Below are positions 4,389-61,516 of a stretch of DNA of 64,000 nucleotides, in pieces. The notes below the pieces were generated by a model. That model saw nothing but the letters and a program-made list of their open reading frames with translations, did not search any database and was not told the origin of the DNA. Location: the NCBI RefSeq assembly GCF_024281235.1, contig NZ_JAHWXY010000001.1, positions 620,001 through 684,000 on the forward strand, in the 5' to 3' direction. This DNA comes from Shinella daejeonensis. GTDB lineage: Bacteria; Pseudomonadota; Alphaproteobacteria; Rhizobiales; Rhizobiaceae. A program made the position numbers and the translations under genes. The first letter of the stretch is position 1. The number at the start of each line of letters is the position of its first letter.

Positions 4389-6455
4389 ATGACCACGCGG
4401 GCCTCCCGTTCCCTCGATCGCCTGATCCGTCCGAAGTCCATCGCCGTCTTCGGCGGAAAGGAAGCGCGGCGGGTCGTGGAGCAATGTGAGAAAATGGGTT
4501 TTTCCGGCGAGATCTGGCCGGTGCATCCACGCGAGAGCGAAATCTTCGGGCGCAAGTGCTACCGCTCCGTCGCCGAACTGCCGGCCGCGCCCGACGCCTC
4601 CTTCGTCGGCGTCAACCGCCAGCTCACCATCGGGATCATCCGCGACCTTGCCGCGCGCGGCGCCGGCGGCGCCGTCTGCTATGCGTCCGGCTTTCGCGAG
4701 GCGGCCAGCGAGCTTGCCGACGGCGACGACCTCCAGAAGGCGCTGGTGGACGCGGCCGGAGACATGCCGATCCTCGGCCCCAACTGCTACGGCTTCATCA
4801 ACATGCTGGACGGCGCGCTGCTGTGGCCCGATCAGCACGGCATGCTGCGCACCGGGCGCGGCGTGGCCGTTCTCACCCAGTCCTCCAATATCGCCTGCAA
4901 CATCTCGATGCAGCAGCGCGGCCTGCCGCTCGCCTATATCCTGACGGCCGGCAATCAGGCGCAGACCGGCCTTGCCGACCTCGCCTTCGCCGTACTCGAA
5001 GACCCCCGCGTCACCGCCGTCGGCCTGCATGTCGAGGGTTTCGACAGCATCGAGGCACTGGAGCGGCTGGCGCTGCGGGCGCGCGAACTGAAAAAGCCGG
5101 TGGTGGCGCTGAAGGTCGGCAAATCCGAACAGGCGCAACGCGCCACCGTCTCGCACACCGCCTCGCTTGCCGGCAACGACGCCGTGTCCTCGGCCCTGCT
5201 CGCCCGTCTCGGCATCGGCCGGGTCGAAACGCTGCCGGAGCTTCTGGAAACGCTGAAGCTGCTGCATGTCGCAGGCCCTCTTGCGGGCTATGCCGTCTCG
5301 TCGATGAGTTGTTCGGGCGGCGAGGCTTCGCTGATGGCCGATGCGGGCGTGAAGCGGAAGATCATCTATCGCGCGCTCAGGGAGGAGCAGCGCCAGCCGC
5401 TGCGCGATATCCTCGGCCAGATGGTGACCATCTCCAACCCGCTCGACTATCACACCTTCGTCTGGGGCGACCGCGAAAAGCAGACCGCCGCCTTCACCAC
5501 CATGATGCAGGGCGACTACGCGCTGAACCTCGTGGTGCTCGACTTCCCGCGCCTCGACCGCTGTGACGCTACCGATTGGGAAACCACCTGCCATGCCGTC
5601 ATCGACGCGGCGCGCGCAACCGGCGCGAAGGCCGGGATCGTCGCCAGCATGGGCGAGAACCTGCCGGAAACCATCGCCGGAATGCTGACGGAAAACGGCG
5701 TCGTTCCCTTCCACGGCATCGAGGAGGCGCTGGCGGCCGCCGAAACCGCCGCCGCCATCGGCGAGATCTGGTCGAAGCCTCTGCCCGCTCCTCTCCTGAA
5801 AGTGGAGCCGGAAGACGGGGACATCGTCACGCTCACCGAACACGACGCCAAGCAGGCGCTTGCCGCCCACGGCCTGCCGGTGCCGCAAGGGGCGGTGGCC
5901 GACACGCCGGCGGCGGCCGCCGACGCCGCCGAAAGCCTCGGTTTCCCGGTGGTGCTCAAGGGGCTCGGCGTCGCCCACAAGACGGAAGCCGGCGCGGTGA
6001 AGCTCGATCTGACCAGCCGTCAGGCCGTCCTTGACGCCGCCACGGCCATGGCCGGCGTCGCCTCGGGATTCCTTGTGGAGACCATGGTGGCAAGACCCGT
6101 GGCCGAACTGATCGTCGGCGCGATGCGCGATCCGGTGGCGGGACCGGTGCTCACCATCGGGGCGGGCGGCATCCTCGTGGAACTGCTGGAGGATTCGGCG
6201 ATCCTGACGCTCCCGGCAAGCGAGGCGGCGATCCGCGAGGCGATTGCCGGCCTGAAGATCGCCAAGCTGCTCTCCGGCTATCGCGGCGCTCCCGAAGGCG
6301 ATACCGACGCGCTGGTCGCCGCCGTCGCATCGGCGGCATCCTATGTCGTTTCAAACGCTTCAATCCTTGAAGAACTGGACGTTAATCCCGTGATGGTGCT
6401 GCCGCAAGGCCACGGCGTCGTTGCCGCCGATGCACTGATCCGTATGAGAAGGTGA
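4389..6455 (+). CDS. NDP-forming acyl-CoA ligase (acetate--CoA ligase family), probable betaine-CoA ligase
   Basis: A 688-residue fusion of alpha and beta parts of ADP-forming acyl-CoA synthetases. A CoA-binding Rossmann domain (about 10-135) is followed by succinyl-CoA-ligase-like domains carrying the phospho-histidine in TVSHTASLAG (His256), then a C-terminal ATP-grasp domain from about 470 (LGFPVVLKGLGVAHKTEAGA). This chemistry activates a carboxylate with CoA and ATP. In this operon it probably makes gamma-butyrobetainyl-CoA or crotonobetainyl-CoA, filling the place of the AMP-forming CaiC of enterobacteria; this is inferred from neighbours. It starts two bases after the dehydrogenase stop and overlaps the next gene by four. 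Confidence 0.85.
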   Translation: MTTRASRSLDRLIRPKSIAVFGGKEARRVVEQCEKMGFSGEIWPVHPRESEIFGRKCYRSVAELPAAPDASFVGVNRQLTIGIIRDLAARGAGGAVCYASGFREAASELADGDDLQKALVDAAGDMPILGPNCYGFINMLDGALLWPDQHGMLRTGRGVAVLTQSSNIACNISMQQRGLPLAYILTAGNQAQTGLADLAFAVLEDPRVTAVGLHVEGFDSIEALERLALRARELKKPVVALKVGKSEQAQRATVSHTASLAGNDAVSSALLARLGIGRVETLPELLETLKLLHVAGPLAGYAVSSMSCSGGEASLMADAGVKRKIIYRALREEQRQPLRDILGQMVTISNPLDYHTFVWGDREKQTAAFTTMMQGDYALNLVVLDFPRLDRCDATDWETTCHAVIDAARATGAKAGIVASMGENLPETIAGMLTENGVVPFHGIEEALAAAETAAAIGEIWSKPLPAPLLKVEPEDGDIVTLTEHDAKQALAAHGLPVPQGAVADTPAAAADAAESLGFPVVLKGLGVAHKTEAGAVKLDLTSRQAVLDAATAMAGVASGFLVETMVARPVAELIVGAMRDPVAGPVLTIGAGGILVELLEDSAILTLPASEAAIREAIAGLKIAKLLSGYRGAPEGDTDALVAAVASAASYVVSNASILEELDVNPVMVLPQGHGVVAADALIRMRR

Positions 6456-7243
6456 TCCTCGTGCCCGGACCGATCCTGCAACGCCGCGAAGGCGGCATCC
6501 TCGAAGTGACCATCGATCGCCCCAAGGCGAACGCCATCGATCTGGTGACCAGCCGCATCATGGGCGAAATCTTCCGCGACTTCCGCGACGACGAATCCCT
6601 GCGGGTCGCCATCGTCACCGGCGCGGGCGAGAAATTCTTTTGTCCCGGCTGGGACCTGAAGGCGGCGGCGGCAGGCGACGCGGTCGACGGCGATTACGGC
6701 GTCGGCGGTTTCGGCGGCATGCAGGAACTGCGCGATCTCAACAAGCCGGTCATCGCCGCCGTGAACGGCATCTGCTGCGGCGGCGGTCTCGAAATCGCTC
6801 TTTCCACAGATTTGATCCTCGCCGCCGAACACGCCACCTTCGCCCTGCCGGAAATCCGCTCCGGCACGGTGGCCGACGCCGCCTCGATCAAGCTGCCGAA
6901 ACGCATCCCCTATCACATCGCCATGGACATGCTCCTGACCGGCCGCTGGCTGGACGCGGCGGAGGCCCATCGCTGGGGATTCGTCAACGAGATCCTTCCT
7001 GCCAATCGCCTGATGGAGCGGGCCTGGGAGCTGGCCCGCCTTCTCGAAAGCGGCCCGCCGCTCGTCTATGCCGCGATCAAGGAAGTCGTGCGCGCCGCCG
7101 AGGGCGAGGACTTTCAGACAACCATGAACAGGATCACCCGGCGTCAGTTTCCCACGGTCGATATTCTCTATTCCAGCGAGGACCAGCTTGAAGGCGCCCG
7201 CGCCTTCGCGGAAAAGCGCGACCCGGTCTGGAAGGGACGTTGA
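6452..7243 (+). CDS. caiD: Crotonobetainyl-CoA hydratase-like enoyl-CoA hydratase
   Basis: A 263-residue crotonase. The segment FFCPGWDLKAAA closely resembles the FFSAGWDLKAAA motif of E. coli CaiD, and Glu114 (GGGLEIAL) and Glu134 (LPEIRSG) keep the same 20-residue spacing as the two catalytic glutamates of CaiD (111 and 131). Expected reaction: crotonobetainyl-CoA to L-carnitinyl-CoA. The GTG start overlaps the stop of the CoA ligase (GTGA), indicating translational coupling; a GTG at 6461 is a weaker alternative. It ends the enzymatic part of the operon, and the thioesterase domain of the lcdH fusion may release the free acid. Confidence 0.87.
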   Translation: MILVPGPILQRREGGILEVTIDRPKANAIDLVTSRIMGEIFRDFRDDESLRVAIVTGAGEKFFCPGWDLKAAAAGDAVDGDYGVGGFGGMQELRDLNKPVIAAVNGICCGGGLEIALSTDLILAAEHATFALPEIRSGTVADAASIKLPKRIPYHIAMDMLLTGRWLDAAEAHRWGFVNEILPANRLMERAWELARLLESGPPLVYAAIKEVVRAAEGEDFQTTMNRITRRQFPTVDILYSSEDQLEGARAFAEKRDPVWKGR

Positions 7244-51602: not shown

Positions 51603-51653
51603 AATGGTGGGCCCGGAGGGACTCGAACCCCCAACCAAGCGGTTATGAGCCGC
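51603..51653. repeat. attL: 51-bp copy of the tRNA 3' end
   Basis: This is identical over 51 bases to 61439-61489 and matches the 3' half of the tRNA(CAU) gene including the CCA and anticodon stem. After 51653 the sequences diverge (TAATTAGG here, CGGCTCTA there). It is the displaced original 3' end of the host tRNA gene, and it is not a complete tRNA. Confidence 0.92.
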
Positions 51654-51790
51654 TAATTAGGGGTCTATAGTATCATTCTTGTGACCGCAATTTACCTTCC
51701 CTCTTGGTGCCAAGTGTCAATTTTATAAGGCTTTTTCGCGGCCATTGGTAACAAGCGGTATCATTGCGTTTTTCTGGAACACCTCCTATG

Positions 51791-51831
51791 TTGTAGCCCA
51801 CACGTAGCACATAGGGGAGCGCGGGCTACAA
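51791..51831. repeat. Left-end arm-type sites (TTGTAGCCCA, inverted pair)
   Basis: TTGTAGCCCA at 51791-51800 faces GGGCTACAA at 51823-51831, which overlaps the integrase start codon. The pair lies inside a hairpin-capable segment (CCTATGT at 51785-51791 with ACATAGG at 51809-51815). The same motif recurs at 56573-56582 and 61376-61385. These are candidate arm sites for integrase or sites for the AlpA-like protein. The 177-base end 51654-51830 holds no gene. Confidence 0.6.
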
Positions 51832-53201
51832 TGACCAAGAGGCCCAAATCAGAGTTCAATCAGAAATCTGAACTGAAAGACACATCGTTCAAGGCGATGA
51901 AGGTGAAGTATCGAACTGACCCTGACACCGGAAAGAAGACAGCGGTTCGATGGGATTGGATGGATACAGAAGTTCGAGGCTTCGGCGTGCGCGTTGGCAC
52001 AACTGGCAAGCGGACATTCATGCTCTTTACGCGGTTTCCGGGATCGCACGCTCCGACACGTGCCGAGCTTGGGGAGTATACCGGGGCGGGCGGGATGACC
52101 TTGGCGCAAGCCAGAAAGAAGGCCGGAGATTGGCGCGAAAAAATCCGCAATGGGGTTGATCCCCGCGACGAACAAAAAGCTGAATTGGCTGAGAAGGCGC
52201 GGAGGCGCGAAAACACCTTCAAGTCCGTTGTCGAGGATTACATTGCCGATCTGCCAACCCGAAAGCGCAACCGCCATATTGAGCAGGACGAGCGCGAGAT
52301 TCGCCGCGAGCTTCTGGACCCGGCTCGCAATGACTGGATGGATAAGCCCATTGCTGAAATTACAGACGAGCACATAGCGGAGCTAATCGGCGCAATCCGT
52401 GACCGTCCTGCTGTCGGCATGGCCTACAATTCTCTTGGACACATCAAATCTATTTTCGATTGGGCAATGTGGCCTGAGCGTCGTCGTGGATACGGCCTGA
52501 CGGATGATCCGACGCGGAACTTGAAGCCAAAGTATCTACGGCTGCCATCAAAAACTGAAACAGCCCGGACTCGTGTGCTTAGCGATGACGAATTGCGAGC
52601 CTATTGGAATGCGGCGGATTCAATCCCGTATCCCCTTGGGCCATTCTTCAAGCTGCTGCTACTGACAGGGCAGCGAAAGTCCGAGGTGTCGGACGCTGAG
52701 CGCAGTGAGTTCGATGTCGGCGCAAGGCTTTGGACTATCCCGGAAGTTCGGGTGAAGATGGGGCAGGATCATTTACTGCCCATGTCCAGTGCCATGATTG
52801 AGCTTGTTGAAGGGCTGCCGAAACAAGGCAATGGTGATTTCATTTTCAGCGACCGACGGACGAAAGGCGCGAAGCCAATTAACGGCTTCGGTCGGGCGAA
52901 GAAGGCGCTCGATGAAAAGATGCTGGAGTGTTTACGGGAGAAAAATCCCGATGCGGAACTTCGTCACTTTGTCCTGCATGACGTGCGGCGCACTGTTCGC
53001 ACCCGTCTTTCCGCGTTGACTAAATCGGAAGTGGCCGAGCACGTCATCGGTCATTCCAAGCAGGGCATTCAGCGAGTCTATAATTATTATGAGTATTTGC
53101 CAGAAATGCGGGAGGCGCTGGAGGCTTGGGCAGGTGCGCTTGACCGAATTGTGAACCCGCCCACCGGCAACAATGTGCTGGAATTCGCGGCAGGAAGCTA
53201 A
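51831..53201 (+). CDS. Tyrosine-type site-specific integrase
   Basis: A 456-residue recombinase. The N-terminal part carries an arm-binding region (WMDTEVRGFGVRVG, typical of P4-type integrases), a SAM-like core-binding domain follows (about 125-240), and the catalytic domain shows Arg282 in LLTGQRKSE, HDVRRT with His383 and Arg386, GHSKQGIQ, and the nucleophile Tyr in the VYNYYEYL segment. All key residues are present. It lies 177 bases from attL and drives integration into the tRNA(CAU) gene. The start overlaps an inverted arm-type motif. Confidence 0.92.
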   Translation: MTKRPKSEFNQKSELKDTSFKAMKVKYRTDPDTGKKTAVRWDWMDTEVRGFGVRVGTTGKRTFMLFTRFPGSHAPTRAELGEYTGAGGMTLAQARKKAGDWREKIRNGVDPRDEQKAELAEKARRRENTFKSVVEDYIADLPTRKRNRHIEQDEREIRRELLDPARNDWMDKPIAEITDEHIAELIGAIRDRPAVGMAYNSLGHIKSIFDWAMWPERRRGYGLTDDPTRNLKPKYLRLPSKTETARTRVLSDDELRAYWNAADSIPYPLGPFFKLLLLTGQRKSEVSDAERSEFDVGARLWTIPEVRVKMGQDHLLPMSSAMIELVEGLPKQGNGDFIFSDRRTKGAKPINGFGRAKKALDEKMLECLREKNPDAELRHFVLHDVRRTVRTRLSALTKSEVAEHVIGHSKQGIQRVYNYYEYLPEMREALEAWAGALDRIVNPPTGNNVLEFAAGS

Positions 53202-53356
53202 AAAAAGATCAATGAAATCAATAGAAATCTTGTTGACATGTGGCACTTTCACAGATTTTAGGATATGTCAATGGGGGTGCGCTAGCCATTACCCTCTTTT
53301 CTGACTATACTCTGTGTGTTGCGGCAGTGAACCGCGTTTAACCATAGGATATAGCA
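53202..53356 (+). promoter_or_regulatory. Promoter/operator region before the AlpA-like gene
   Basis: An AT-rich gap of 155 bases. TTGACA at 53233-53238 is a consensus -35, and TATACT at 53306-53311 a good -10, but they are not spaced as one promoter, so two start sites may exist. TGACAT (53234-53239) and ATGTCA (53265-53270) form a dyad of 6-base arms, a possible operator. Confidence 0.5.
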
Positions 53357-53548
53357 ATGCGACTCTTAAATATTACAGAACTTCGGACAATCAAGGGCGT
53401 GGATTTCTCCAAGCCCCAAATCTATCGAATGATCGCTGAAGGCCGCTTTCCGCGCCAGCTCCCGATTTCGGAGAAACGAGTCGCTTGGCTCGAATCTGAA
53501 ATTGATGCGTGGATTAGGGAACGAGCCGATGCGCGTATGGCAGCATGA
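53357..53548 (+). CDS. alpA: AlpA-family helix-turn-helix regulator/excisionase
   Basis: A 63-residue protein with the AlpA/MerR-like fold: LNITELRTIKGVDFSKPQIYR then GRFPRQLPISEKRVAWLESEID, matching excisionase-type helix-turn-helix proteins of phage satellites. It lies just downstream of the integrase, and AlpA proteins activate integrase or promote excision in related elements. It could bind the TTGTAGCCCA sites; this is inference. A short AGGA lies before the ATG. Confidence 0.82.
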   Translation: MRLLNITELRTIKGVDFSKPQIYRMIAEGRFPRQLPISEKRVAWLESEIDAWIRERADARMAA

Positions 53549-53614
53549 AAAAACCGCCAAGCGAGGTCCAGTCGCGAAGCGGTCGTTTCATTTGGATATA
53601 GGAATTAAAGCACA

Positions 53615-53854
53615 GTGAATATAGCACGTAAATTGCCGGTTGGTCAAGACCTTCCCGGTGTCATCCCGCCCCTCGATGCGGACAGCGACCGATTGTTGTA
53701 TCTCGTCATGGACGAGCTGCATCGAAGGAAACTTCCAACCATCATCGAACACGCGGAAAAACTCGACTACGTTTATTGGTCGGAAAGCCGGGGCGAATGG
53801 GTCCCTACGTTTTGCCCCGATAAGGTTTACGAGTTCATGCGGGGGATTCGATGA
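53615..53854 (+). CDS. Small hypothetical protein upstream of the primase
   Basis: A 79-residue protein with a GTG start at 53615 (weak Shine-Dalgarno AGGAAT about 12 bases before it). The C-terminal part (DYVYWSESRGEWVPTFCPDKVYEFM) is acidic-aromatic. The stop overlaps the primase ATG (ATGA), suggesting co-translation and a role in replication. Not recognised. Confidence 0.55.
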   Translation: MNIARKLPVGQDLPGVIPPLDADSDRLLYLVMDELHRRKLPTIIEHAEKLDYVYWSESRGEWVPTFCPDKVYEFMRGIR

Positions 53855-56211
53855 CAGCCAGCCTCAAAATTGCACAAAATCTTACGGCGAACGGCTGGCC
53901 CATTCTCGCCGCCAACAGCAACAAAGTCCCCCTCCACCGCGCGTGGGGGGAGACGCAGCTAACCGCCGACGATCTCGACCGGTATTTTTCGGGAACGTCA
54001 AATCTTGTCGGCATTGTCACCGGGCAGCGTTCCGGCGTGTTCGTCATTGATCCCGACGAGAAAGACGGGAAGAACGGTATTGCCGAGTTTCTAAAGGCCG
54101 GTGACGTTCCCGCGACCTATACGGTCAAAACGCGTTCTGGCGGGCGTCATTATTATTTCCGCCATCCGGGGCCGGGAACTTCGATTATCAATAAGACGGA
54201 GTTTCTCCCCGGCGTCGATGTTCGCGGCGATGGCGGCTACGTAGTCGCGCCCGGCAACGAGGGTTATCACGTCATCGATGGCTCTGAGATAGCTTACGCG
54301 CCAGAATGGCTCCTAAAGCTTGTTGCAAAACAGGGGTTGCCGGGGGTCGAAACGATCCCCGAACCGATCAATCCGCTCACGACTGATGAGCACGCTGAAG
54401 CGCTGAGGCGTGCTGAAATTTACCTCAGTAACATCAATGCGGATTGTAGCCGGGACCAATGGCTTTCCGCACTGATGGGCGTTCATTCAATGACGCATGG
54501 AAGCGGCGAGGGCTTTGAACTTGCGGATCGTTGGAGTGCTACCGGTGGCGAAAGCTACAAAGGCTCGAAAGACGTTGCGGATCGTTGGCGGTCCTTCACC
54601 TTTGATCGTTCAGACGGTATCCGCGAAGGTACGTTGCGCCATTTGACAAGTGGCACCAATGCACAATTGCAGGTCGCATTTCCGGACATTCCAGTCGGTG
54701 AGCTACCCGCACCGACTAAGCAACCGGCACAGCTTCCCCAAATTTGGAACGTGCCGGAAGTTCACATAATGGCGGACGCTGCTGAATTGGCCTTGCTGTC
54801 AGCCGATGTTCCGTTCTTCCAGCGTGGCGGGAAGCTTCGCCAGCCCATTGTTACCGATGACGGGGCAATCCTGTCAGAAGTCACGGCGACGAAGATGGTC
54901 GATCATCTTTCACGGGTTGCGCGGTTCACGAAGCTGGTCAACAACAAGAGCGGCCCGAAGGAAGTGCAGATTGCGCCGCCGATGAACATTGCGCAGATTG
55001 TTCTATCGCGTGATGGTGAGTGGAAGTTTCCGCACGTTCATGGCGTGGTTTCAACTCCCACGCTCCGCCGTGATGGTTCAATCTTGTCAGCGCCGGGATA
55101 TGATCAAGCGTCGGGATTGTTCGTCGTGAACCCTGTCACGCTGCCAGCAATACCGGATCAACCGACACGGGACGATGCGCTTGCGGCCCTGCAACTGATT
55201 GCTGGCCTATTCCGCGAGTCGCCATTCATAGATGAGGCAAGCCGATCTGTTGCGCTCTCGGCATTTATGACGCCGATTGTACGTGGTGCGATGGACGTTG
55301 CTCCACTTCACGCCATGGCCGCGCCTGAAATGGGTTCTGGCAAGACCTTTATATGTGACGTGACATCGGCAGCAGTGAACGGCTTCCGATCAATGCCAGC
55401 GCTATCGCACGTCAACGCGACGGAAACGGAAAAGCGACTCACGGCTAAATTGCTACAGGGTCAGCCGACCGTTTTGCTGGACAACGTGAATGGGTCGCTC
55501 GGTTCTGACTTCTTGTGTCAGGCCGTCACCGCCCCGGTCGTGGAAGTTCGCCCGCTTGGTGTTACGGAAATCAAAACCATCCGAAACACTCATACGCTTT
55601 ATGCAACGGGCAACAATTTGCGGGTGGCGAATGACATGGTGCGCCGCACGATCCGGGCGACACTCGACGCCCGATCCGATCAACCATGGCTCCGGGTGTT
55701 TTCCGGCGATCCCATTGGTGACGTGTTGCGTGATCGTGGTCGCTATATCGCCGCTGCGTTCACTATTGCCCGCGCCTACATCGCAGCCGGAGAGCCGTCT
55801 GTCGTTGGTCAATATGCGTCATTCGGTGAATGGAACGCCCGCGTCCGGTCACCGCTCGTTTGGCTCGGCATGGCTGATCCGCTGGAAACCCAACAGGCGC
55901 TCCGGGGCGACGATGAAGGTCGTGAAGTTCTGGCGCAGATCATTGACGCATGGCCTGAAAATGGCGCGTTCACAGCTGCCGAAATTATCAGCTGGTCAAG
56001 CGATCCTATGAACGCTCATCATGGTGCGAAGTTGCGGGGGTTGCTCGAAATGACACCCGCAAGACACCCGCAAAACGCGGGGGTAACACCCGCAAGGCTG
56101 TCAAAGTGGCTCCGGGATAATGTCAATCGAATCGTTGATGGCCGTAAAATAGCGATGAACGAGGACGCTCACCGTAAGGTTAAGGTCTTTTCGGTCGAAA
56201 CCTGCGGGTGA
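53851..56211 (+). CDS. Primase-polymerase with PriCT-2 and ATPase (helicase-like) domains
   Basis: A 786-residue replication protein. Residues 5-165 form a bifunctional primase/polymerase domain with the catalytic Asp67-Pro-Asp69 (FVIDPDEK), SGGRHYYF and PGVDVRGDGGYVVAPG. A PriCT-2 domain lies at about 190-270 (CSRDQWLSALMGVHS). The C-terminal half holds a P-loop at about 495-499 (MGSGKT) and a TVLLDNV Walker B, like the helicase parts of satellite primases. It likely starts DNA replication at the iterons that overlap and follow its own 3' end. The repeated TPA codons near residue 735 come from the iterons. Confidence 0.85.
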   Translation: MTASLKIAQNLTANGWPILAANSNKVPLHRAWGETQLTADDLDRYFSGTSNLVGIVTGQRSGVFVIDPDEKDGKNGIAEFLKAGDVPATYTVKTRSGGRHYYFRHPGPGTSIINKTEFLPGVDVRGDGGYVVAPGNEGYHVIDGSEIAYAPEWLLKLVAKQGLPGVETIPEPINPLTTDEHAEALRRAEIYLSNINADCSRDQWLSALMGVHSMTHGSGEGFELADRWSATGGESYKGSKDVADRWRSFTFDRSDGIREGTLRHLTSGTNAQLQVAFPDIPVGELPAPTKQPAQLPQIWNVPEVHIMADAAELALLSADVPFFQRGGKLRQPIVTDDGAILSEVTATKMVDHLSRVARFTKLVNNKSGPKEVQIAPPMNIAQIVLSRDGEWKFPHVHGVVSTPTLRRDGSILSAPGYDQASGLFVVNPVTLPAIPDQPTRDDALAALQLIAGLFRESPFIDEASRSVALSAFMTPIVRGAMDVAPLHAMAAPEMGSGKTFICDVTSAAVNGFRSMPALSHVNATETEKRLTAKLLQGQPTVLLDNVNGSLGSDFLCQAVTAPVVEVRPLGVTEIKTIRNTHTLYATGNNLRVANDMVRRTIRATLDARSDQPWLRVFSGDPIGDVLRDRGRYIAAAFTIARAYIAAGEPSVVGQYASFGEWNARVRSPLVWLGMADPLETQQALRGDDEGREVLAQIIDAWPENGAFTAAEIISWSSDPMNAHHGAKLRGLLEMTPARHPQNAGVTPARLSKWLRDNVNRIVDGRKIAMNEDAHRKVKVFSVETCG

Positions 56212-56399
56212 CTGCGGGTGTTGTGCGGGTGTTGTCTGAGTATAACACCCGCATCATTTATTCATATTTTTCAATGCTTTGAGATGCGCTGCGGGTGTTG
56301 CGGGTGTTGTTTTTTATTCTAGAGGCTCAAAGTTTTTAAGTCGTACTAATTTCTATTGGGCACCTGATAGATTCACAAACAACACCCGCAACACCCGCA
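56053..56399. repeat. Iteron array, candidate replication origin
   Basis: At least 11 copies of a core TGCGGGTGTT or its reverse complement (some with the last bases altered) occur: 56053, 56064 and 56085 within the primase 3' end; 56203, 56213, 56224 and 56244; then 56290 and 56299 as a head-to-tail pair, and 56381 and 56390 as the same pair inverted. The two pairs form a 23-bp inverted repeat (56290-56312 and 56377-56399) around an AT-rich spacer. This is the layout of iteron-controlled origins such as those of P4-type elements. Confidence 0.75.
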
Positions 56400-56482
56400 A
56401 AGGCTCAATTTCCCCTCTGGAAAGTCTGGAAAATCGCAGCCCGTTGCATCCTCCGGGCTTGTGACTTTTTTCCTAAATCTAA

Positions 56483-56503
56483 AACCAAGCGGTTCACAGC
56501 CGC
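56483..56503. repeat. Internal core-like att site (18 of 21 bases as att, anticodon triplet changed)
   Basis: The 21 bases match the end of the att repeat (51633-51653) except for the central triplet: CAC here in place of ATG, read on the plus strand. On the minus strand the anticodon loop would carry GUG instead of CAU. Both stem arms of the core are kept. No D arm or T arm surrounds it, so it is not a tRNA. Confidence 0.6.
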
Positions 56504-56569
56504 GTGGGCAACATAGGCAACCCCTTGAATCTCATGCTATCTAAGGGTTTGAAGGCCCGTATGCGCTAC

Positions 56570-56584
56570 ATCTGGGCTACAAAT
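56570..56584. repeat. Internal arm-type site, inverted copy of the right-end sequence
   Basis: ATCTGGGCTACAAAT is the exact reverse complement of 61374-61388 at the right end of the element. It lies 12 bases before the ATG of the first packaging gene (56596), so a protein bound here could control the late operon. The gap 56212-56595 otherwise holds iterons and the core-like site. Confidence 0.6.
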
Positions 56585-56595
56585 CGAGGATTTAC

Positions 56596-57006
56596 ATGCA
56601 AAATTTGCCGGGCGTTGCCCCTGATATACAAACGAGAAAGCCGCCAATTGCCGCCACGAAAGACACAGGAAAGCTAAGGCTTCGCACCTTGTCGGATTTG
56701 GACGGTCGATCAACCGCCTACAAAATCGCGGCGGGTCTTCGCGACGACATGATTGCCGATGCTGGCGGTGTGGACGCCCTGAGCGCCGTAAAGGTCAAGC
56801 TCGTCGAGTCAGTCGCCACGATGACCGCCGTTATCGAGCATTATCACAGCCTCATCCTGTCCGGTGACACGACTGTCCCGCTCGGTGAGCTTGCCACCTT
56901 GACGAACACGCGCAATCGCACGGCGCAACTGGTCGGGCTTGGTAAAGCATCGAAGACGCTGGATTTGGACGATTATGTCAGCCAGACCTACGGGGCGAAA
57001 CAATGA
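56596..57006 (+). CDS. Hypothetical protein, first gene of the packaging operon
   Basis: A 136-residue protein; the first 40 residues are flexible and the rest is helical (GVDALSAVKVKLVESVATMTAVIEHYHSLIL). It overlaps the next gene by four bases, and two genes later comes the terminase large subunit, so a small-terminase-like DNA recognition role is possible. No recognisable helix-turn-helix; function not known. Confidence 0.6.
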   Translation: MQNLPGVAPDIQTRKPPIAATKDTGKLRLRTLSDLDGRSTAYKIAAGLRDDMIADAGGVDALSAVKVKLVESVATMTAVIEHYHSLILSGDTTVPLGELATLTNTRNRTAQLVGLGKASKTLDLDDYVSQTYGAKQ

Positions 57007-57206
57007 GTGCCGCCGACACCTATGCCGTGACCGTCCTTCGCGATGCTGTCGAGACGGCCATCATGGAAGGGCGTTTGTCGCCGCTCCAATCTTTCACCAT
57101 GCGTTTGTTTTTGTCCGAAATGGAGAAGACCGCCGAGCCTGCTAACTATCATCGCCGGGCCAATATTGTCGGGCGATTTGTAGATGCCGTTGAGGCGATG
57201 CAATGA
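57003..57206 (+). CDS. Small hypothetical protein between packaging genes
   Basis: A 67-residue helical protein (MSAADTYAVTVLRDAVETA, LQSFTMRLFLSEMEKTAE). ATG overlaps the upstream stop, and its own stop overlaps the terminase start, so it is expressed with the terminase. Not recognised. Confidence 0.6.
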   Translation: MSAADTYAVTVLRDAVETAIMEGRLSPLQSFTMRLFLSEMEKTAEPANYHRRANIVGRFVDAVEAMQ

Positions 57207-58717
57207 CGCCAGAACAGAAGATTATGAACGCCCTTGCCGATACCAACCTTATCGGCGCTGGCCTTGCTCCTGACGGGAACATCGCAACATGGCGCAATTG
57301 GTTCGTCATCGTGAAAGCCGCCCTTGGTCTTGGCGACACGTTGAACGACGAAGAACTTGCACTGTTCAAGCGCCTAAGCGGCGGTCGCGACGTGCCATCG
57401 AAGAGAGTCCGGCGTTGCGTTGTCTTCTCCGGGAGGCGGTCAGGCAAGTCGAACGTCACCAGTGCCATCGGCCTTGGAACGGCATTGTTCGCTGACACGT
57501 CCATGCTCAAACCCGGTGAAATTGGTCACATGATGGTTGTGTCACCGACACGCGATCAATCGGCCAGCATCATGAATTACGCCGAAGGCATGGCGTCGGC
57601 TAGTCCGTTGATCGAACGTCGCATATCGGGGCGCAGCGCCGAAACGCTTAGCCTGAATGATGGTCGTGTTGCGTTGACTGTGAATGCAGCCTCGCACCGT
57701 ACCACACGCGGAAAAACGCTCCTTGGTGCGATTATTGACGAGGCGACACAGCTTCGTGACGCTGAGAGTGCCACGCCTGACGTTGAACTTGTGCGCGCTC
57801 TTGCGCCCGGCCTCCTAAGCACCGGTGGAACGCTTTGGGTTATCTCGTCGGCCTATCGCAAACACGGCTGGATGTATTCGCAGTGGAAAGAGTTCTTCGG
57901 CCGGGATTCCGATGACGTGCTGGTCATTCAGGCCGCCACACATGACCTCAACCTGACGATGACCGAAGAGTCGATCCTTGCGGCTATCGCTGACGATCCA
58001 GAAGCCAACCGGGCCGAGTATCTCAGTGAGTTCCGCGACGATATTGGATCGTTGATAGATGACGCCACGGTTGAAGCGGCTATCAATTACGGTCGGCCTG
58101 CGGAATTGCCTTTCATTCGTGAGAATATGAAGCATCTGACCTTCTTCGCGGATATTTCTGGCGGCAGGCATGATGCCAGCACGTTGTGCGGCGGATTTAA
58201 AAACCCCGATGGCGTGTTCATCCCGGTCGGCCTATGGGGCCGTGACGCGCCGCACGATCCGGCTGCGGTGATTGCCGAGTTCGCACAGATCATTCGACGC
58301 TATGGACGCAATAGCGTCGTTTCTGACAATTACGCTGGCACGTTCGTTTCCGGCAATTTCGAGCGTCACGGCATCAAGTTCACCCGGTCGAGCATGGTGA
58401 AATCGACCATCTATCTCGAAAGCGTGCCGCACTTCATGCAAGGCAAAGTCGAGTTGATCGACCACAAGAAGGCACTTCGGGAGCTTCGTCTTCTAGAGCG
58501 TCGGGTCAGTAAATCGGGCAGAGATGTGGTGGACCACCCGAAAAATGGGTCAGACGACTACATAAACAGCCTGCTTGGTTGCCTCGTACACGTCATGAAG
58601 CCGCCGAGGAATCAGACTTGGGTCGGCCCGACCATCATCTTGGATGGCGTCATTCAAGATGGCCGGAATTATACGGGTGATTATCTCCCTCCCGGCGCGA
58701 CTCGCTCATATTGGTAG
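57203..58717 (+). CDS. Phage terminase large subunit
   Basis: A 504-residue DNA-packaging motor. The ATPase domain has a Walker A-like SGRRSGKS at residues 76-83 and a Walker B Asp179-Glu180 in GAIIDEATQ; a coupling motif follows (WVISSAYRKHG). The C-terminal RNase H-like nuclease shows Asp317 (FFADISGG), Asp375 (VVSDNYAG) and the Asp451-Asp452 pair before YINSLL. All catalytic residues seem intact. Presence of a full terminase in a small element without capsid genes suggests that it redirects or supplies packaging into a helper phage's particles. Confidence 0.87.
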   Translation: MTPEQKIMNALADTNLIGAGLAPDGNIATWRNWFVIVKAALGLGDTLNDEELALFKRLSGGRDVPSKRVRRCVVFSGRRSGKSNVTSAIGLGTALFADTSMLKPGEIGHMMVVSPTRDQSASIMNYAEGMASASPLIERRISGRSAETLSLNDGRVALTVNAASHRTTRGKTLLGAIIDEATQLRDAESATPDVELVRALAPGLLSTGGTLWVISSAYRKHGWMYSQWKEFFGRDSDDVLVIQAATHDLNLTMTEESILAAIADDPEANRAEYLSEFRDDIGSLIDDATVEAAINYGRPAELPFIRENMKHLTFFADISGGRHDASTLCGGFKNPDGVFIPVGLWGRDAPHDPAAVIAEFAQIIRRYGRNSVVSDNYAGTFVSGNFERHGIKFTRSSMVKSTIYLESVPHFMQGKVELIDHKKALRELRLLERRVSKSGRDVVDHPKNGSDDYINSLLGCLVHVMKPPRNQTWVGPTIILDGVIQDGRNYTGDYLPPGATRSYW

Positions 58718-58820
58718 CGGCATCAATCACAATGTCGCCACAAATGATTTTGCAATTATACTAAAGAAAACTATATATAACTCAAATATACACTTGAGAG
58801 ACTGACTAGGCAATCCTTTG

Positions 58821-58864
58821 AATACATTGTATTATCCTGAATAACAGATCGTTATTACTCAGGA
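58821..58864. promoter_or_regulatory. Palindrome and stem-loop upstream of the second late gene set
   Basis: The 154-base AT-rich gap (58718-58871) contains a 13-base palindrome AATACA-T-TGTATT (58821-58833) and then a stem TCCTGA (58835-58840) / TCAGGA (58859-58864) with an inner ATAAC / GTTAT pair. A TTGAAT at 58819-58824 could be a -35. It may act as an operator plus promoter, or as a terminator for the terminase operon. Confidence 0.5.
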
Positions 58865-58871
58865 TTTATTA

Positions 58872-59339
58872 ATGTCAACAGCAACTGAAGAACTTGCCAA
58901 ACTTGAAGACTGGTTTCGCTCCGAGCGTGAAAAGCTTGCCGAACAGGTCGAGGCCGAGAACGAAAAAGCCCGGCAAGCTAATGAGAAAGCCGAGGAAAAG
59001 CGCATCGCCGCGCTCAAGGCCGAGGCAGGGGAACATGCGCGTTACATCGTCGAGGACGTATCTGCGAAGCTGGACGTTGCAATTGCCGAGGTCGCCAAGT
59101 TGCTCAAGGAACGGCTCGCCGCCTTCGACGAAATCCACTCGCGCTACTCGTCGGTTTGCAACCCCGGTCATCACGCCCGGAACCCGCGCATCAATTCGGG
59201 ATGTCTGGGCGAGATTTTGAATATCGCGCTGCGTGAACGTCGGGCTCCGCTGGAGGGTGGTTACAAGCTCGCCGACATGCGCGCCCTTGGTGCTGTGTAC
59301 AGCCCGCCGGAGCCGAAAAAGAAGGCGAAGGCTGAATGA
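58872..59339 (+). CDS. Coiled-coil hypothetical protein
   Basis: A 155-residue protein. Residues 1-95 are highly charged and helical, rich in Glu, Lys and Ala, predicted to form a coiled coil (EREKLAEQVEAENEKARQAN); the C-terminal part has two Cys (SVCNPGHH, SGCLGEI) and ends in a Lys-rich tail. It overlaps the protease gene by four bases. It could be a scaffold-like or DNA-associated part; unknown. Confidence 0.6.
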   Translation: MSTATEELAKLEDWFRSEREKLAEQVEAENEKARQANEKAEEKRIAALKAEAGEHARYIVEDVSAKLDVAIAEVAKLLKERLAAFDEIHSRYSSVCNPGHHARNPRINSGCLGEILNIALRERRAPLEGGYKLADMRALGAVYSPPEPKKKAKAE

Positions 59340-59725
59340 GTACCGATGTAGAAGTCCTGAAGGTCGCGGAAGAACGCTTACTTATCGGATGGGCAGCAGT
59401 AGCCGTTGAAAACAATGCTATCGTCACAGACCTCGAAGGCGACCAGTTTGACGACCCGGAAGACCTCCTGAAGGCCAGTACGGATTTCATGGCTGACACG
59501 CGGCAGTCGCTTCTCCGACATTCCGGGGGACAGGTCGGCACCGTTCTCCACTCCATGCCGTTAACGCCTTCGGTTTGCAAGGCACTCCGAATTGATACGG
59601 GAGGCCGCTTCGGATGGGCGGTCGGCATCAGGATTGATGATGACGAGGTGTGGTCTGCTGTCAAATCCGGCCAGCTTAGGTCCCTAAGTATCGGTGCAAC
59701 CGCCACCAGACATGAAGGAAATTAA
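59336..59725 (+). CDS. XkdF-like putative phage serine protease domain
   Basis: A 129-residue protein. The pattern resembles XkdF-type prohead proteases: LLIGWAAVAVENNAIVTDLEGDQFDDPEDLLKAS at the start, LLRHSGGQVGTV with a His, then GWAVGIRIDDDEVWSAVKSG and SLSIGATA, where the Ser would be the nucleophile. The match is by motif and from memory. It is about the size of the protease domain alone. The N-terminal part usually found in XkdF is encoded by the next gene instead. Confidence 0.6.
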   Translation: MSTDVEVLKVAEERLLIGWAAVAVENNAIVTDLEGDQFDDPEDLLKASTDFMADTRQSLLRHSGGQVGTVLHSMPLTPSVCKALRIDTGGRFGWAVGIRIDDDEVWSAVKSGQLRSLSIGATATRHEGN

Positions 59726-59727
59726 TT

Positions 59728-60177
59728 ATGGCTCGCCGACCGAAACGACTTCGCAACCTTCGCATCCGGGAAATTTCCTTGTGCGAGCGCGGTATGAATC
59801 AACATGCCGAGATTGTCCTTCACAAAGCCGCTGATCCCGCGCCGGAATTTCCCTCCATCGCTGAAGTCGCCAAGGCATTGACCGGTGCCAGTCCGGAAGT
59901 GCTCGAAATCTTCAAAGCGCAACAGGATGAGATGCGCAAAATGCTCGCCGAATTTTCCATTGATAAACAGGATGAAAACATGACCGACCCGAACCACCAC
60001 TGGAACAAAGCCGTCTCGGAGTACGCCGAAAAGAACAATCTCCCGATTTCCAAGGCCGCTGTGGACATTATCACGGCACGTCCGGACATTGTAGAACGCG
60101 CCTACAGTCTTGATGCTCAGACTGCCGTCGCCCGCGAACAGGCGAAGCAAACCCAGCTTTACGGTGGCGCGGCATGA
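59728..60177 (+). CDS. Hypothetical protein with XkdF N-terminal-like motif, possible scaffold
   Basis: A 149-residue protein beginning LRNLRIREISLCERGMNQHAE, which resembles the extreme N-terminus of XkdF-type proteins (RNAxIxxISLVxxGAN). The rest is helical and acidic (EVLEIFKAQQDEMRKMLAEF), as in scaffold proteins. It starts two bases after the protease gene. Together the pair look like an XkdF protein split in two with the order of parts reversed. Confidence 0.55.
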   Translation: MARRPKRLRNLRIREISLCERGMNQHAEIVLHKAADPAPEFPSIAEVAKALTGASPEVLEIFKAQQDEMRKMLAEFSIDKQDENMTDPNHHWNKAVSEYAEKNNLPISKAAVDIITARPDIVERAYSLDAQTAVAREQAKQTQLYGGAA

Positions 60178-60404
60178 GTACCGCCATGGGAAGGCTTATC
60201 ACGGCTCGGCAAAATGAGCTTGCGGCGGAATACGGCAGCGAGAAGCGAGTGCCGGTCTCCCTCTGGAATCCCAGTTACATTCATAATTTTCTGCGCGCTA
60301 ATCGGTCTGATGAATATTATGCCGCGATAAAAGCTGACGACGAAGCATTCGAGGTTAATCGGCGGAAGCAAGCCAAGCGCATTCATGAAGAGATGTACGA
60401 ATGA
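60174..60404 (+). CDS. Small hypothetical protein
   Basis: A 76-residue basic-acidic protein (LITARQNELAAEYGSEKRVPV, RRKQAKRIHEEMYE at the end). It overlaps both neighbours by four bases. Not recognised; phage-like context only. Confidence 0.5.
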   Translation: MSTAMGRLITARQNELAAEYGSEKRVPVSLWNPSYIHNFLRANRSDEYYAAIKADDEAFEVNRRKQAKRIHEEMYE

Positions 60405-60592
60405 ACTGGCGCAAAATCGCGGAAGAAATGGGCGCTGTGCAGGCCACTGGATCAAGCTGGAAAAGGAAAGTCGCCGTTACCCTTGGGAAGACTCAAGGGA
60501 CTGGCGGCTGGTCGCGGCGCATTGTGGAATCCGAAATTGACGGAAAATCGTCTTGGGATCGCGCCGCCGAAGCAGTCTTGAAAGATCAATGA
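60401..60592 (+). CDS. Small hypothetical protein
   Basis: A 63-residue basic protein (MNWRKIAEEMGAVQATGSS, GKTQGTGGWSRRIVESEI). It is the last gene of the overlapping late operon, and a strong hairpin follows four bases after the stop. Not recognised. Confidence 0.5.
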   Translation: MNWRKIAEEMGAVQATGSSWKRKVAVTLGKTQGTGGWSRRIVESEIDGKSSWDRAAEAVLKDQ

Positions 60593-60595
60593 GAA

Positions 60596-60804
60596 TTACA
60601 CCGGGCTGGACGTTGGCCCGGTGTAAGGGGTGGTGAGTGACCTTCAGACCATTCACCACCCTACCAGATCGGACCATCTGTGTGTCTTTGTGACCGTGGT
60701 CTGGTGCGGGAAGTGATGCCGGTCATGAACCCCGCAAAACCGCCGCCGCTGCGGCCCATTAAAAGCGGCAATCACGACAAGGGGCGGCTCACGGGTCGCC
60801 CCTT
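60596..60804 (+). ncRNA. Structured intergenic region with four hairpins
   Basis: Four stems occur in a row: 60596-60626 (11-bp perfect stem TTACACCGGGC / GCCCGGTGTAA), 60628-60661 (GGGTGGTGA / TCACCACCC), 60663-60705 (ACCAGA / TCTGGT), and 60779-60804 (AAGGGGCG / CGCCCCTT, followed by TT, a Rho-independent terminator). The first may end the late operon. The last ends a second transcript, so the part between may be a small RNA, or the whole may be a packaging or recognition site. No protein gene is seen from 60593 to 60825. Confidence 0.5.
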
Positions 60805-60825
60805 TTCATAACGAAGGATTTTTGA

Positions 60826-61056
60826 ATGTCGAAAACACAACGCGCCGAACAGATGCTGACGGAAAAGCAGCGTGCGACCCTGTGGAAACTGCACAGCTCT
60901 GGTAATTACGAACCGGAGAATCTAGCCGAACGCTACGGAATGTCCGAAACTGAATTTGAGTGGTACATCGTCTCAATGCAGGCCGAGCATAACGCGAAAC
61001 AGCGTAAGAAAACCGATTGGGCTGCTAGGTTTGCTGAGCATCGGGCGGCGACCTAA
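60826..61056 (+). CDS. Small helix-turn-helix-like hypothetical protein
   Basis: A 76-residue protein; the middle part (EKQRATLWKLHSSGNYEPENLAERYGMSETEFEWYIV) resembles a helix-turn-helix, and the ends are basic. AACGAAGGA precedes the ATG. It is the last plus-strand gene of the element and overlaps by 32 bases with the converging gene. Function unknown. Confidence 0.55.
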   Translation: MSKTQRAEQMLTEKQRATLWKLHSSGNYEPENLAERYGMSETEFEWYIVSMQAEHNAKQRKKTDWAARFAEHRAAT

Positions 61057-61300
61057 CGCCGTCATGCAAGAAAACCGACTCCCCAAATGAAGGAGCCTTA
61101 GCGTCCATGGGGCCTGTGACGGGGAAGTCAATTGTCAGGACCACTCCATCATTAATGTCAATTTTCACTGAAATGTTTTTGGGTTTGTGAACTGTGTAGC
61201 CGTCATTTTCCGACGGCGTTACTCCCCTTGCTGCCATGTTGGCTACCATTACAGCTTTAATAGCGCTTTCGATCCGCTCTCTAATGTTACGGTCACTCAT
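61025..61300 (-). CDS. Small hypothetical protein at the right end of the element
   Basis: A 91-residue protein, the only minus-strand gene of the element. It starts MSDRNIRERIESAIKAVM and continues with a beta-rich part (NISVKIDINDGVVLTIDFPV). A strong GGGAGGTG lies before the ATG at 61300. It could be a regulator or an accessory (for example anti-phage or toxin/antitoxin) gene, as small genes at this place in satellites often are, but there is no similarity that I can name. Confidence 0.6.
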   Translation of the reverse strand: MSDRNIRERIESAIKAVMVANMAARGVTPSENDGYTVHKPKNISVKIDINDGVVLTIDFPVTGPMDAKAPSFGESVFLHDGVRSPPDAQQT

Positions 61301-61364
61301 TCCACACCTCCCTGTGGTTATCCCCCACGCTACCACATCGGCACGGAATCAAAAGCCGCGCTCC

Positions 61365-61385
61365 CGTAGCCCAATTTGTAGCCCA
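61365..61385. repeat. Right-end arm-type sites
   Basis: CGTAGCCCA (61365-61373) and TTGTAGCCCA (61376-61385) stand in tandem, 54 bases inside attR. The second matches the left-end site at 51791 exactly, and the surrounding 15 bases (61374-61388) repeat inverted at 56570-56584. Confidence 0.6.
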
Positions 61386-61438
61386 GATCGAGTATATCCC
61401 AAACTACAAAATAAAATATCTAATAATTTCAAGGTTTT

Positions 61439-61489
61439 AATGGTGGGCCCGGAGGGACTCGAACCCCCAACCAAGCGGTTATGAGCCGC
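61439..61489. repeat. attR: 51-bp repeat, part of the intact tRNA gene
   Basis: This copy forms the 3' half of the complete tRNA gene at 61441-61516. It is identical to 51603-51653. Confidence 0.92.
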
Positions 61490-61516
61490 CGGCTCTAACC
61501 ATTGAGCTACAGGCCC
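61441..61516 (-). tRNA. tRNA with anticodon CAU (probably tRNA-Ile2; possibly tRNA-Met)
   Basis: 76 bases on the minus strand with CCA encoded. The acceptor stem GGGCCTG pairs at the 3' end with CGGGCCC, the D stem and GTTCGAGTC T arm are present, and the anticodon loop is CTCATAA. The anticodon arm, with loop sequence and following CGCTTGG, resembles the Ile2 tRNAs in which C34 becomes lysidine, more than elongator Met. It is the integration site of the element. Confidence 0.9.

Follow-up and report, generated by a model that had tools for sequence, protein, structure and literature searches.

A widespread family of tRNA-integrated elements predicted to carry a terminase but no recognisable portal or shell

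Organisation of the element

We analysed a 64,000-nucleotide stretch of the Shinella daejeonensis genome (contig NZ_JAHWXY010000001.1; hereafter the window, whose numbering is used throughout) in which a 51-nt direct repeat (51603-51653 and 61439-61489, 100% identical) bounds a 9,836 bp element that is probably an integrated phage satellite. The repeat corresponds to the 3' part of a tRNA-Met(cat) gene called on the minus strand (61441..61516), the integration target; the left attachment site is an exact 51-bp copy of that part and the right one lies almost entirely within the complete tRNA gene. A first-pass annotation of this DNA had described the exact repeats as the 3' end of an unnamed tRNA. 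In 20 of 20 congeners the 3' portion of the tRNA is present together with the right-hand flank, with no match to the element in the 1.5 kb fetched beyond. G+C content is 0.542 inside the element and 0.655 in the rest of the window. Fourteen open reading frames (ORFs) were considered, all of them compared with PHROGs and 10 with Pfam. The many four-base overlaps reported earlier amount to six (starting at 53851, 57003, 57203, 59336, 60174 and 60401), those at 60174 and 60401 hinging on starts and on a small ORF that a second gene caller did not choose.

Genes for integration and replication lie on the plus strand and encode a 456 aa tyrosine integrase (51831..53201; PF13356, PF00589, PF22022); a 63 aa AlpA-family excisionase/regulator (53357..53548; PF05930, 5.5e-14); orf79 (53615..53854; GTG start, no Pfam or PHROG family), which overlaps the next gene by four bases; and a 786 aa primase-polymerase with a C-terminal part (53851..56211; PF09250 2.3e-25, PF08707 5.2e-14). 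The integrase, AlpA and Prim-Pol matches all exceed the Pfam cut-offs, and the primase-polymerase is also matched in PHROGs (phrog_29234 6.5e-110, phrog_19930 2.8e-38). Directly 3' of its gene, at 56213..56399, stand six iteron-like copies of TGCGGGTGTTG, four direct and two inverted; all six exact copies in the window fall in this interval (0.04 expected), and the cluster is probably the replication origin. With integration at a specific site, an integrase, a regulator and replication genes of its own, the element has some of the features by which a satellite is recognised.

The terminase genes follow on the same strand, a 136 aa TerS-like small subunit (56596..57006) and a 504 aa large subunit, TerL (57203..58717), being separated by orf67 (57003..57206; no Pfam or PHROG family). 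TerL is weak in Pfam (17 bits, under the cut-off of 23.7) and clear in PHROGs (phrog_2, 1.5e-19), and for its nuclease portion an alignment with phage TerL domains of solved structure was obtained (5m1f, E 3.6e-4). Eight positions are invariant in an alignment of 11 TerLs (A2, from which the genome Rctr16k was left out), namely G77, G81 and K82 of Walker A, D179 and E180 of Walker B, and the acidic nuclease positions D317, D375 and D452; the catalytic residues that had looked intact in the single sequence are thus kept across relatives. The first-pass annotation named neither the iterons nor the TerS-like gene. The TerS-like protein has no match in Pfam or PHROGs, and is recognised from its family, whose gene precedes TerL in 33 of the 35 elements described below, and from a structural model (predicted local distance difference test score, pLDDT, 86.5) whose top match is HK97 TerS 6z6e (Z 9.2, root-mean-square deviation 2.5 over 82 residues); next come the unrelated 8q4h (Z 8.8) and, tied with it, 8pop, HK97 TerS with DNA (Z 8.8). 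The fold match supports a TerS identity and is not proof of it.

A family of tRNA-bounded relatives

With the window TerL alone as query, a relative turned up in 11 of the 397 genomes representing the order, spread over 9 of 142 genera. A TerL profile matched 4 of the 385 genomes representing the class and 4 of the 21 representing the genus, the window's own genome being counted in each figure. Named phages contributed 6 TerL records, none covering 80% of the query and the top-ranked one 26% identical, and plasmids contributed five (Methylobacterium 2, Komagataeibacter 2, Roseomonas 1, the last over 34% of the query only). In three plasmid stretches TerL is accompanied by a recombinase and by a primase-type or VapE/DUF5906 gene, with no annotated capsid gene; plasmids L015 (pKNA06), L016 and L017, from Komagataeibacter, Methylobacterium and Roseomonas, are typed non-mobilizable, and their TerL module has a primase-type gene and a 'recombinase family protein' nearby.

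Pattern scans that used only the one TerL yielded nothing from genome or IMG/VR contigs. Alignment A2 succeeded there, returning 245 genome-contig stretches and 85 IMG/VR stretches that encode TerL relatives. We kept the best 80 of each. In all, 177 loci were analysed, 172 with a called TerL gene, of which 60 also have a tRNA gene. At least three loci are repeats (L115 of L020, L137 of L021, L156 of L022), and L071 and L025 share one TerL; none of these is among the elements counted below. Dropping near-copies from the IMG/VR set (TerLs with identical first 200 residues) and TerLs shorter than 400 aa leaves 62 of 80 loci, 32 with a portal.

In 35 of these 60 loci TerL lies between the copies of a tRNA-anchored direct repeat of 15-59 nt (7 of the 35 repeats being only 15-17 nt), compared with 0 of 60 in an inverted-copy control. 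These 35 elements, the window's included, span 8,629-18,298 bp (median 11,572 bp) and use 15 kinds of tRNA gene. They come from Alphaproteobacteria (16), Gammaproteobacteria (7), Nitrospirota (3), Acidobacteriota (1) and Binatota (1), with 7, the window's among them, lacking a class label. The first-pass annotation had proposed a rhizobial satellite type and a search for the same gene order at tRNA sites in other Rhizobiales; the architecture recurs and the satellite reading is supported, while 'rhizobial' proves too narrow for elements found in several phyla. Custom gene calls and family profiles gave TerL in 35 (by construction), a TerS-like gene in 33, an integrase in 31, an AlpA-like gene in 27 (a profile that may also catch other small helix-turn-helix proteins), a major capsid protein (MCP) in 3 and a portal in none. 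The window element shows the combination that defines the family: a tRNA site, an integrase, a primase, an A2-family TerL preceded by an A6-family TerS, and no portal. Because 35 such tRNA-bounded elements recur, it is not a lone deletion.

The TerS and TerL genes overlap by 1-8 bases in 21 of the 35 elements. Pairwise NG86 estimates of nonsynonymous (dN) and synonymous (dS) divergence indicate purifying selection on TerL (dN and dS of 0.087 and 0.42 for L147-L157, 0.154 and 0.94 for L157-L174, 0.012 and 0.146 for L066-L068, 0.125 and 1.15 for L133-L140), dS being saturated for many more distant pairs. In a TerL tree of 152 rows, labels of portal-bearing and satellite loci need 8 changes, compared with about 22 when shuffled, and so are clustered. 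Five contigs with TerL and no portal found close on themselves (L049; L066, 9.8 kb; L068, 9.4 kb; L140, 7.9 kb; L179), two of them by overlaps of only 51 bases, of the kind that assembly can produce at the ends of a circular contig.

The 16.7-kb genome Rctr16k (KX853514; set of 22 proteins) is a more distant relative, with profile matches to TerL (2.7e-48), integrase (3.6e-58) and AlpA (2.1e-6), a TMP_3 tape measure (4.2e-16) and one 418-aa protein without assignment; profiles for MCP, portal and SCAF, an all-helical family described below, give no match. Its TerL is 26% identical to that of the window (tblastn).

Portal, capsid and tail genes

Neither Pfam nor PHROGs gives a portal, capsid or tail match for the ORFs of the window element beyond the head-maturation-protease matches described below and weak ones (XkdF-like protein to major head protein, 0.12; integrase to tape measure, 0.47), which agrees with the earlier statement that such genes are lacking. 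The largest protein without assignment has 155 aa, so the element has no room for a usual portal or MCP; the profile search likewise found neither hidden in the small ORFs, as the first-pass annotation had allowed they might be.

Portals are readily found in relatives. Seven of 9 long post-TerL proteins of IMG/VR relatives, used as a positive control, are portals (phrog_146, 2662/12, 145), and hidden Markov models built from these match 44 of 80 IMG/VR loci; in 42 the portal gene is co-oriented with TerL and at most 4 kb 3' of it, so the method can detect portals. The same models match none of the 97 other loci, 76 of which extend at least 4 kb past TerL, and none of the 35 elements, which are negative even at E 0.01. 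The relatives are therefore not always full prophages, the condition under which the first-pass annotation would have abandoned its reading: phage contigs of the same TerL superfamily show portals beside TerL, and none of the 35 elements has a recognisable one. A search of 32 host genomes with three Pfam portal families, covering 33 of the 35 elements (all but the window's and L190), turned up 36 portal places, all of them outside the elements. Per host genome, PF04860 matched 14 of 32, PF05136 7 of 32 and PF05133 0 of 32; on these counts an incoming rather than a resident helper may serve some hosts. In the window's own genome PF04860 occurs at three places, all outside the window, and there are three HK97-type clusters of portal and MCP outside the element (L201-L203; C11:1.06 Mb, C11:1.10 Mb, C2:34 kb), which are candidate helpers or a gene transfer agent.

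Upstream of TerL, 36 large proteins have a complete list of 25 Pfam families without a portal or capsid family, being mainly of primase/helicase type (AAA_25 10, DUF5906 7, and Prim-Pol, D5_N, Toprim_3 and DUF7146 3 each). Downstream, we scanned 143 representatives of 154 protein clusters (70-399 aa) as a pool and 6 others singly, the remaining 5 being the window's own; the pooled scan covers the best 25 of 44 and the best 25 of 71 families, so that a portal hit less significant than about 1e-7 (Pfam) could escape it. One baseplate-hub protein appears in this pool. It also holds defence-like cargo from other elements, namely Thoeris ThsA/ThsB domains, a SMODS nucleotidyltransferase, a Panacea-type antitoxin and RadC.

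Of the 13 loci that the MCP profile matches, just 3 also have a portal (L050, L089, L113). Three of the 35 elements, L121, L133 and L162, carry an HK97-type MCP, which in L121 does not adjoin TerL. Four gammaproteobacterial loci (L133, L140, L162, L178) have an integrase and TerS, TerL and an HK97-type MCP in a row, with no portal found, and L049 is a 9.5-kb self-closing metagenome contig with TerS, TerL, MCP and an opposite-strand tape measure, no portal being found by profiles. Tape measures occur in 6 of the 35 elements and not in the window's: those of L019 (TMP_3, 1.1e-49), L166 (TMP_2) and L175 (PhageMin_Tail) exceed the Pfam cut-offs, those of L130 and L182 fall under them, and that of L150 is recognised by a custom profile only. 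L024 and L026 have weak tape-measure PHROG matches only, and L027 and others outside the tRNA-bounded set also have a tape measure.

The slot after TerL and the small genes

In the window, TerL is followed on the plus strand by orf155 (58872..59339), which is coiled-coil-like and has only weak PHROG matches (spanin 0.0043, tape measure 0.11, major head 0.25); by a 129 aa XkdF-like prohead protease (Peptidase_S78_2; 59336..59725; PF14550 1.3e-9, 38.5 bits against a cut-off of 24), whose best PHROG is phrog_1530 'DNA methyltransferase' (7.5e-16) and the next phrog_3017, head maturation protease (3.1e-6); and by orf149 (59728..60177), a possible scaffold part, judging by a weak match to phrog_3244 (1.5e-5) in which it resembles part of a head maturation protease. 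The earlier identification of integrase, AlpA, primase-polymerase, terminase and XkdF-like protease is thus borne out by Pfam or PHROG matches in each case. Further along are orf76 (60174..60404, plus strand; 60186 as start in the second gene caller), orf63 (60401..60592, plus strand; omitted by that caller), orf76b (60826..61056, plus strand; weak phrog_20467, 0.0036) and orf103 (61025..61336, minus strand; GTG start), a doubtful gene that the second caller did not retain.

The same place is occupied differently in relatives. Plasmid pKNA06 has a DUF2213 protein there (2.1e-34), and Rctr16k has a Mu-I-like protease (4.9e-29) two genes past TerL. We take XkdF/S78_2, DUF2213 and Mu-I-like proteins all to be prohead protease families, and the presence of three such families at one place after TerL suggests a role of this slot in head maturation. 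Across the 35 elements the slot holds the SCAF protein in 14, another family in 5 and an HK97-type MCP in 3, and is unassigned in most of the remainder. SCAF was considered as a scaffold protein; this is unproven, because its model (pLDDT 91.9) resembles only generic helical bundles in a PDB-based structure search and because in L054 a SCAF gene lies between TerL and the portal. The SCAF model has no match below E 0.001 in BFVD, and the family shows no link to orf155, orf149 or XkdF of the window. L147 and L157 lie at different tRNA genes of one metagenome-assembled genome and have TerLs 91% identical; their slot genes differ in size and cluster.

Packaging model and alternatives

As judged from sequence, the window element is one of a widespread family that encodes a complete terminase and probable head-assembly modifiers, and no recognisable portal or shell. 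We consider it likely that it is an integrated satellite with its own packaging motor, which takes portal, shell and tail from a helper. The apparent origin of Rctr16k DNA in virus particles speaks for this reading. In the presence of an active helper phage, AlpA and the integrase would excise the element from the tRNA gene, and Prim-Pol would replicate it from the iterons at 56.2-56.4 kb. The element's TerS would then select satellite DNA, which TerS and TerL would drive through the helper portal into heads built from the helper's capsid protein. Head assembly or maturation may be adapted by the XkdF-like protease together with the neighbouring small proteins, and helper tails would finish the particle. 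We infer the dependence on a helper, the docking on a foreign portal and the role of the protease.

Several observations weigh against this interpretation. A Z score of about 9 is not decisive for TerS, because TerS is a helical bundle, and the TerS profile gives no match in Rctr16k. The left flank lies elsewhere in most of the 20 congeners, leaving no clean empty site. BLASTP and TerL/TerS profiles applied to 20 kb around each of the three portal and MCP clusters gave no credible link to the element (best E 0.057). Neither orf155 nor XkdF nor orf149 has a homologue in the other 176 loci, so their proposed role rests on one Pfam and one weak PHROG match. Some elements have same-strand downstream proteins of at least 400 aa without a clear family (L026 568, L120 554, L121 563, L190 990, L193 432 and L149 413 aa), of which L026 has weak tape-measure PHROG matches, L120, L121, L190 and L193 have no Pfam match and L149 lay outside the scan, as did opposite-strand proteins of L190 (504 aa) and L194 (529 aa). 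The satellite and portal-bearing TerLs do not form two clades, and 3 of the 8 label changes on the tree are forced. The terminase-bearing locus L239 of the congener G784 has at 6029-6796, between AlpA and a 466-aa gene, a 255-aa protein that matches a portal profile in part only (E 2.8e-33) and is either a remnant or a decoy portal, and in the congener G778 a stop falls within TerL; decay and phage ancestry therefore do occur.

These last observations bear most directly on the idea of a decayed prophage, the inert remainder of a once complete phage whose head and tail genes were deleted. TerL, TerS and the protease are phage genes, portal-bearing phages with the same TerL superfamily exist, and the tree implies several switches between portal-bearing and portal-less states, to which the portal fragment and the interrupted TerL of the congeners may be added. 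We nevertheless think decay quite unlikely for the window element, as did the first-pass annotation: the same compact gene set recurs in 35 elements of several phyla with attachment repeats in place, integration and replication genes are retained where a portal is found in none of the 35, dN of TerL is well under dS in relatives, the frames are open and tightly packed, and circular contigs exist. A classical satellite whose terminase mainly disturbs or redirects the packaging of its helper, rather than packaging the satellite's own DNA, also seems unlikely. Some S. aureus pathogenicity islands (SaPIs) do encode TerS alone to redirect packaging, according to the portions of PMC10690885 available, and a satellite TerL could conceivably compete for the helper portal; the invariance of ATPase and nuclease residues in 11 relatives, with TerS in the same cluster, points instead to a working motor. 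That the family consists of minimal viruses, each building an unrecognised particle without a helper, is highly improbable. Rctr16k DNA seems to be particle-derived and many downstream proteins of the family have no assigned function, but the largest protein without assignment in the window has 155 aa and the smallest relatives, of 8.6-9 kb, cannot fit portal, shell and tail together.

Within the preferred reading of a satellite with its own motor, a more specific and tentative possibility is that such 'ruler' satellites encode only the parts that decide what is packed and how large the particle is, all bulk parts, the portal included, coming from the helper. The ruler parts would be the terminase, the swappable slot after TerL (prohead protease, helical protein or capsid-protein homologue) and, in some, the tape measure. 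The slot might then be an adaptor to different helpers, since L147 and L157 have TerLs 91% identical and differ in their slot genes.

Earlier sightings and comparison with known satellites

Our literature search found no description of this family; a 2023 satellite survey, the VEIME paper and a 2025 satellite review fell outside it, so a prior description is possible there. Two earlier papers likely hold one member each, as far as the available text of both allows. In Gambelli 2016 (PMC5099504), genome 5 is a 17-kb circle of 25 ORFs at a depth of 219 in virus-particle DNA, with 'no head proteins' annotated in the portions available, and its authors treated it as a phage; a nuclease step formed part of the polyethylene glycol precipitation, one of two virus concentration methods used. 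Rctr16k is apparently this genome, matched by size and 25 features with what is available of that paper, and its DNA thus seems to come from virus particles. It is like the family of the window element in having TerL, integrase, AlpA-like, prohead-protease-like and tape-measure genes and no annotated head protein, and differs from the window element in its low TerL identity and lack of a TerS-profile match. Bellas 2015 (PMC4490671), in the sections available, reports Group 8 'putative satellite phages' from cryoconite viromes, among them the 15.8-kb circular ML_43_3791; compared by description only, this comes close in its gene set (prim-pol, P4-type integrase, terminase, resolvase and phage tail gene), differs in having ParB, and is a single scaffold without a family follow-up in that text.

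Among established satellite types, phage-inducible chromosomal islands (PICIs) and SaPIs carry an integrase, a primase and, in some, TerS, and redirect packaging to the satellite; PICIs use the helper's TerL and have at most their own TerS. The window element encodes its own TerL and so does not qualify as a classical PICI, which relies on that of the helper. P4-like satellites have the P4 helicase-primase and Psu/Sid/Delta genes; P4-like families are absent from the Pfam listing of 10 element proteins, no search for P4 genes by name having been made.

Capsid-forming PICIs (cfPICIs) come closer, sharing with the window element their own TerS and TerL and a head maturation protease (PMC10690885). 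In the portions of that paper available they also encode MCP, portal and head-tail connectors, none of which was found in the window element; with no portal or MCP found, it is not a cfPICI. Phage-inducible chromosomal minimalist islands (PICMIs) resemble it in integrase, AlpA, primase and the lack of capsid genes, and differ in being inserted at fis without identifiable packaging genes, as the accessible text of PMC10803314 has it, whereas the window element has a tRNA site, a TerS-like gene and TerL; their primase is of DUF3987/DUF5906 type, that of the window a Prim-Pol. By the features tested, the element is not a PICMI. The MCP that follows TerL in some relatives recalls Ccm of SaPIbov5, a capsid-protein homologue which, in the available part of PMC8569155, alters capsid shape. 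On the available descriptions, then, the satellites compared here either rely on the motor of the helper or supply both motor and shell. In a broad family with a motor and no portal, the terminase would have to act on foreign portals, which makes the specificity between terminase and portal testable, and satellites with their own tape measure would, if confirmed, represent a new way to remodel a helper particle.

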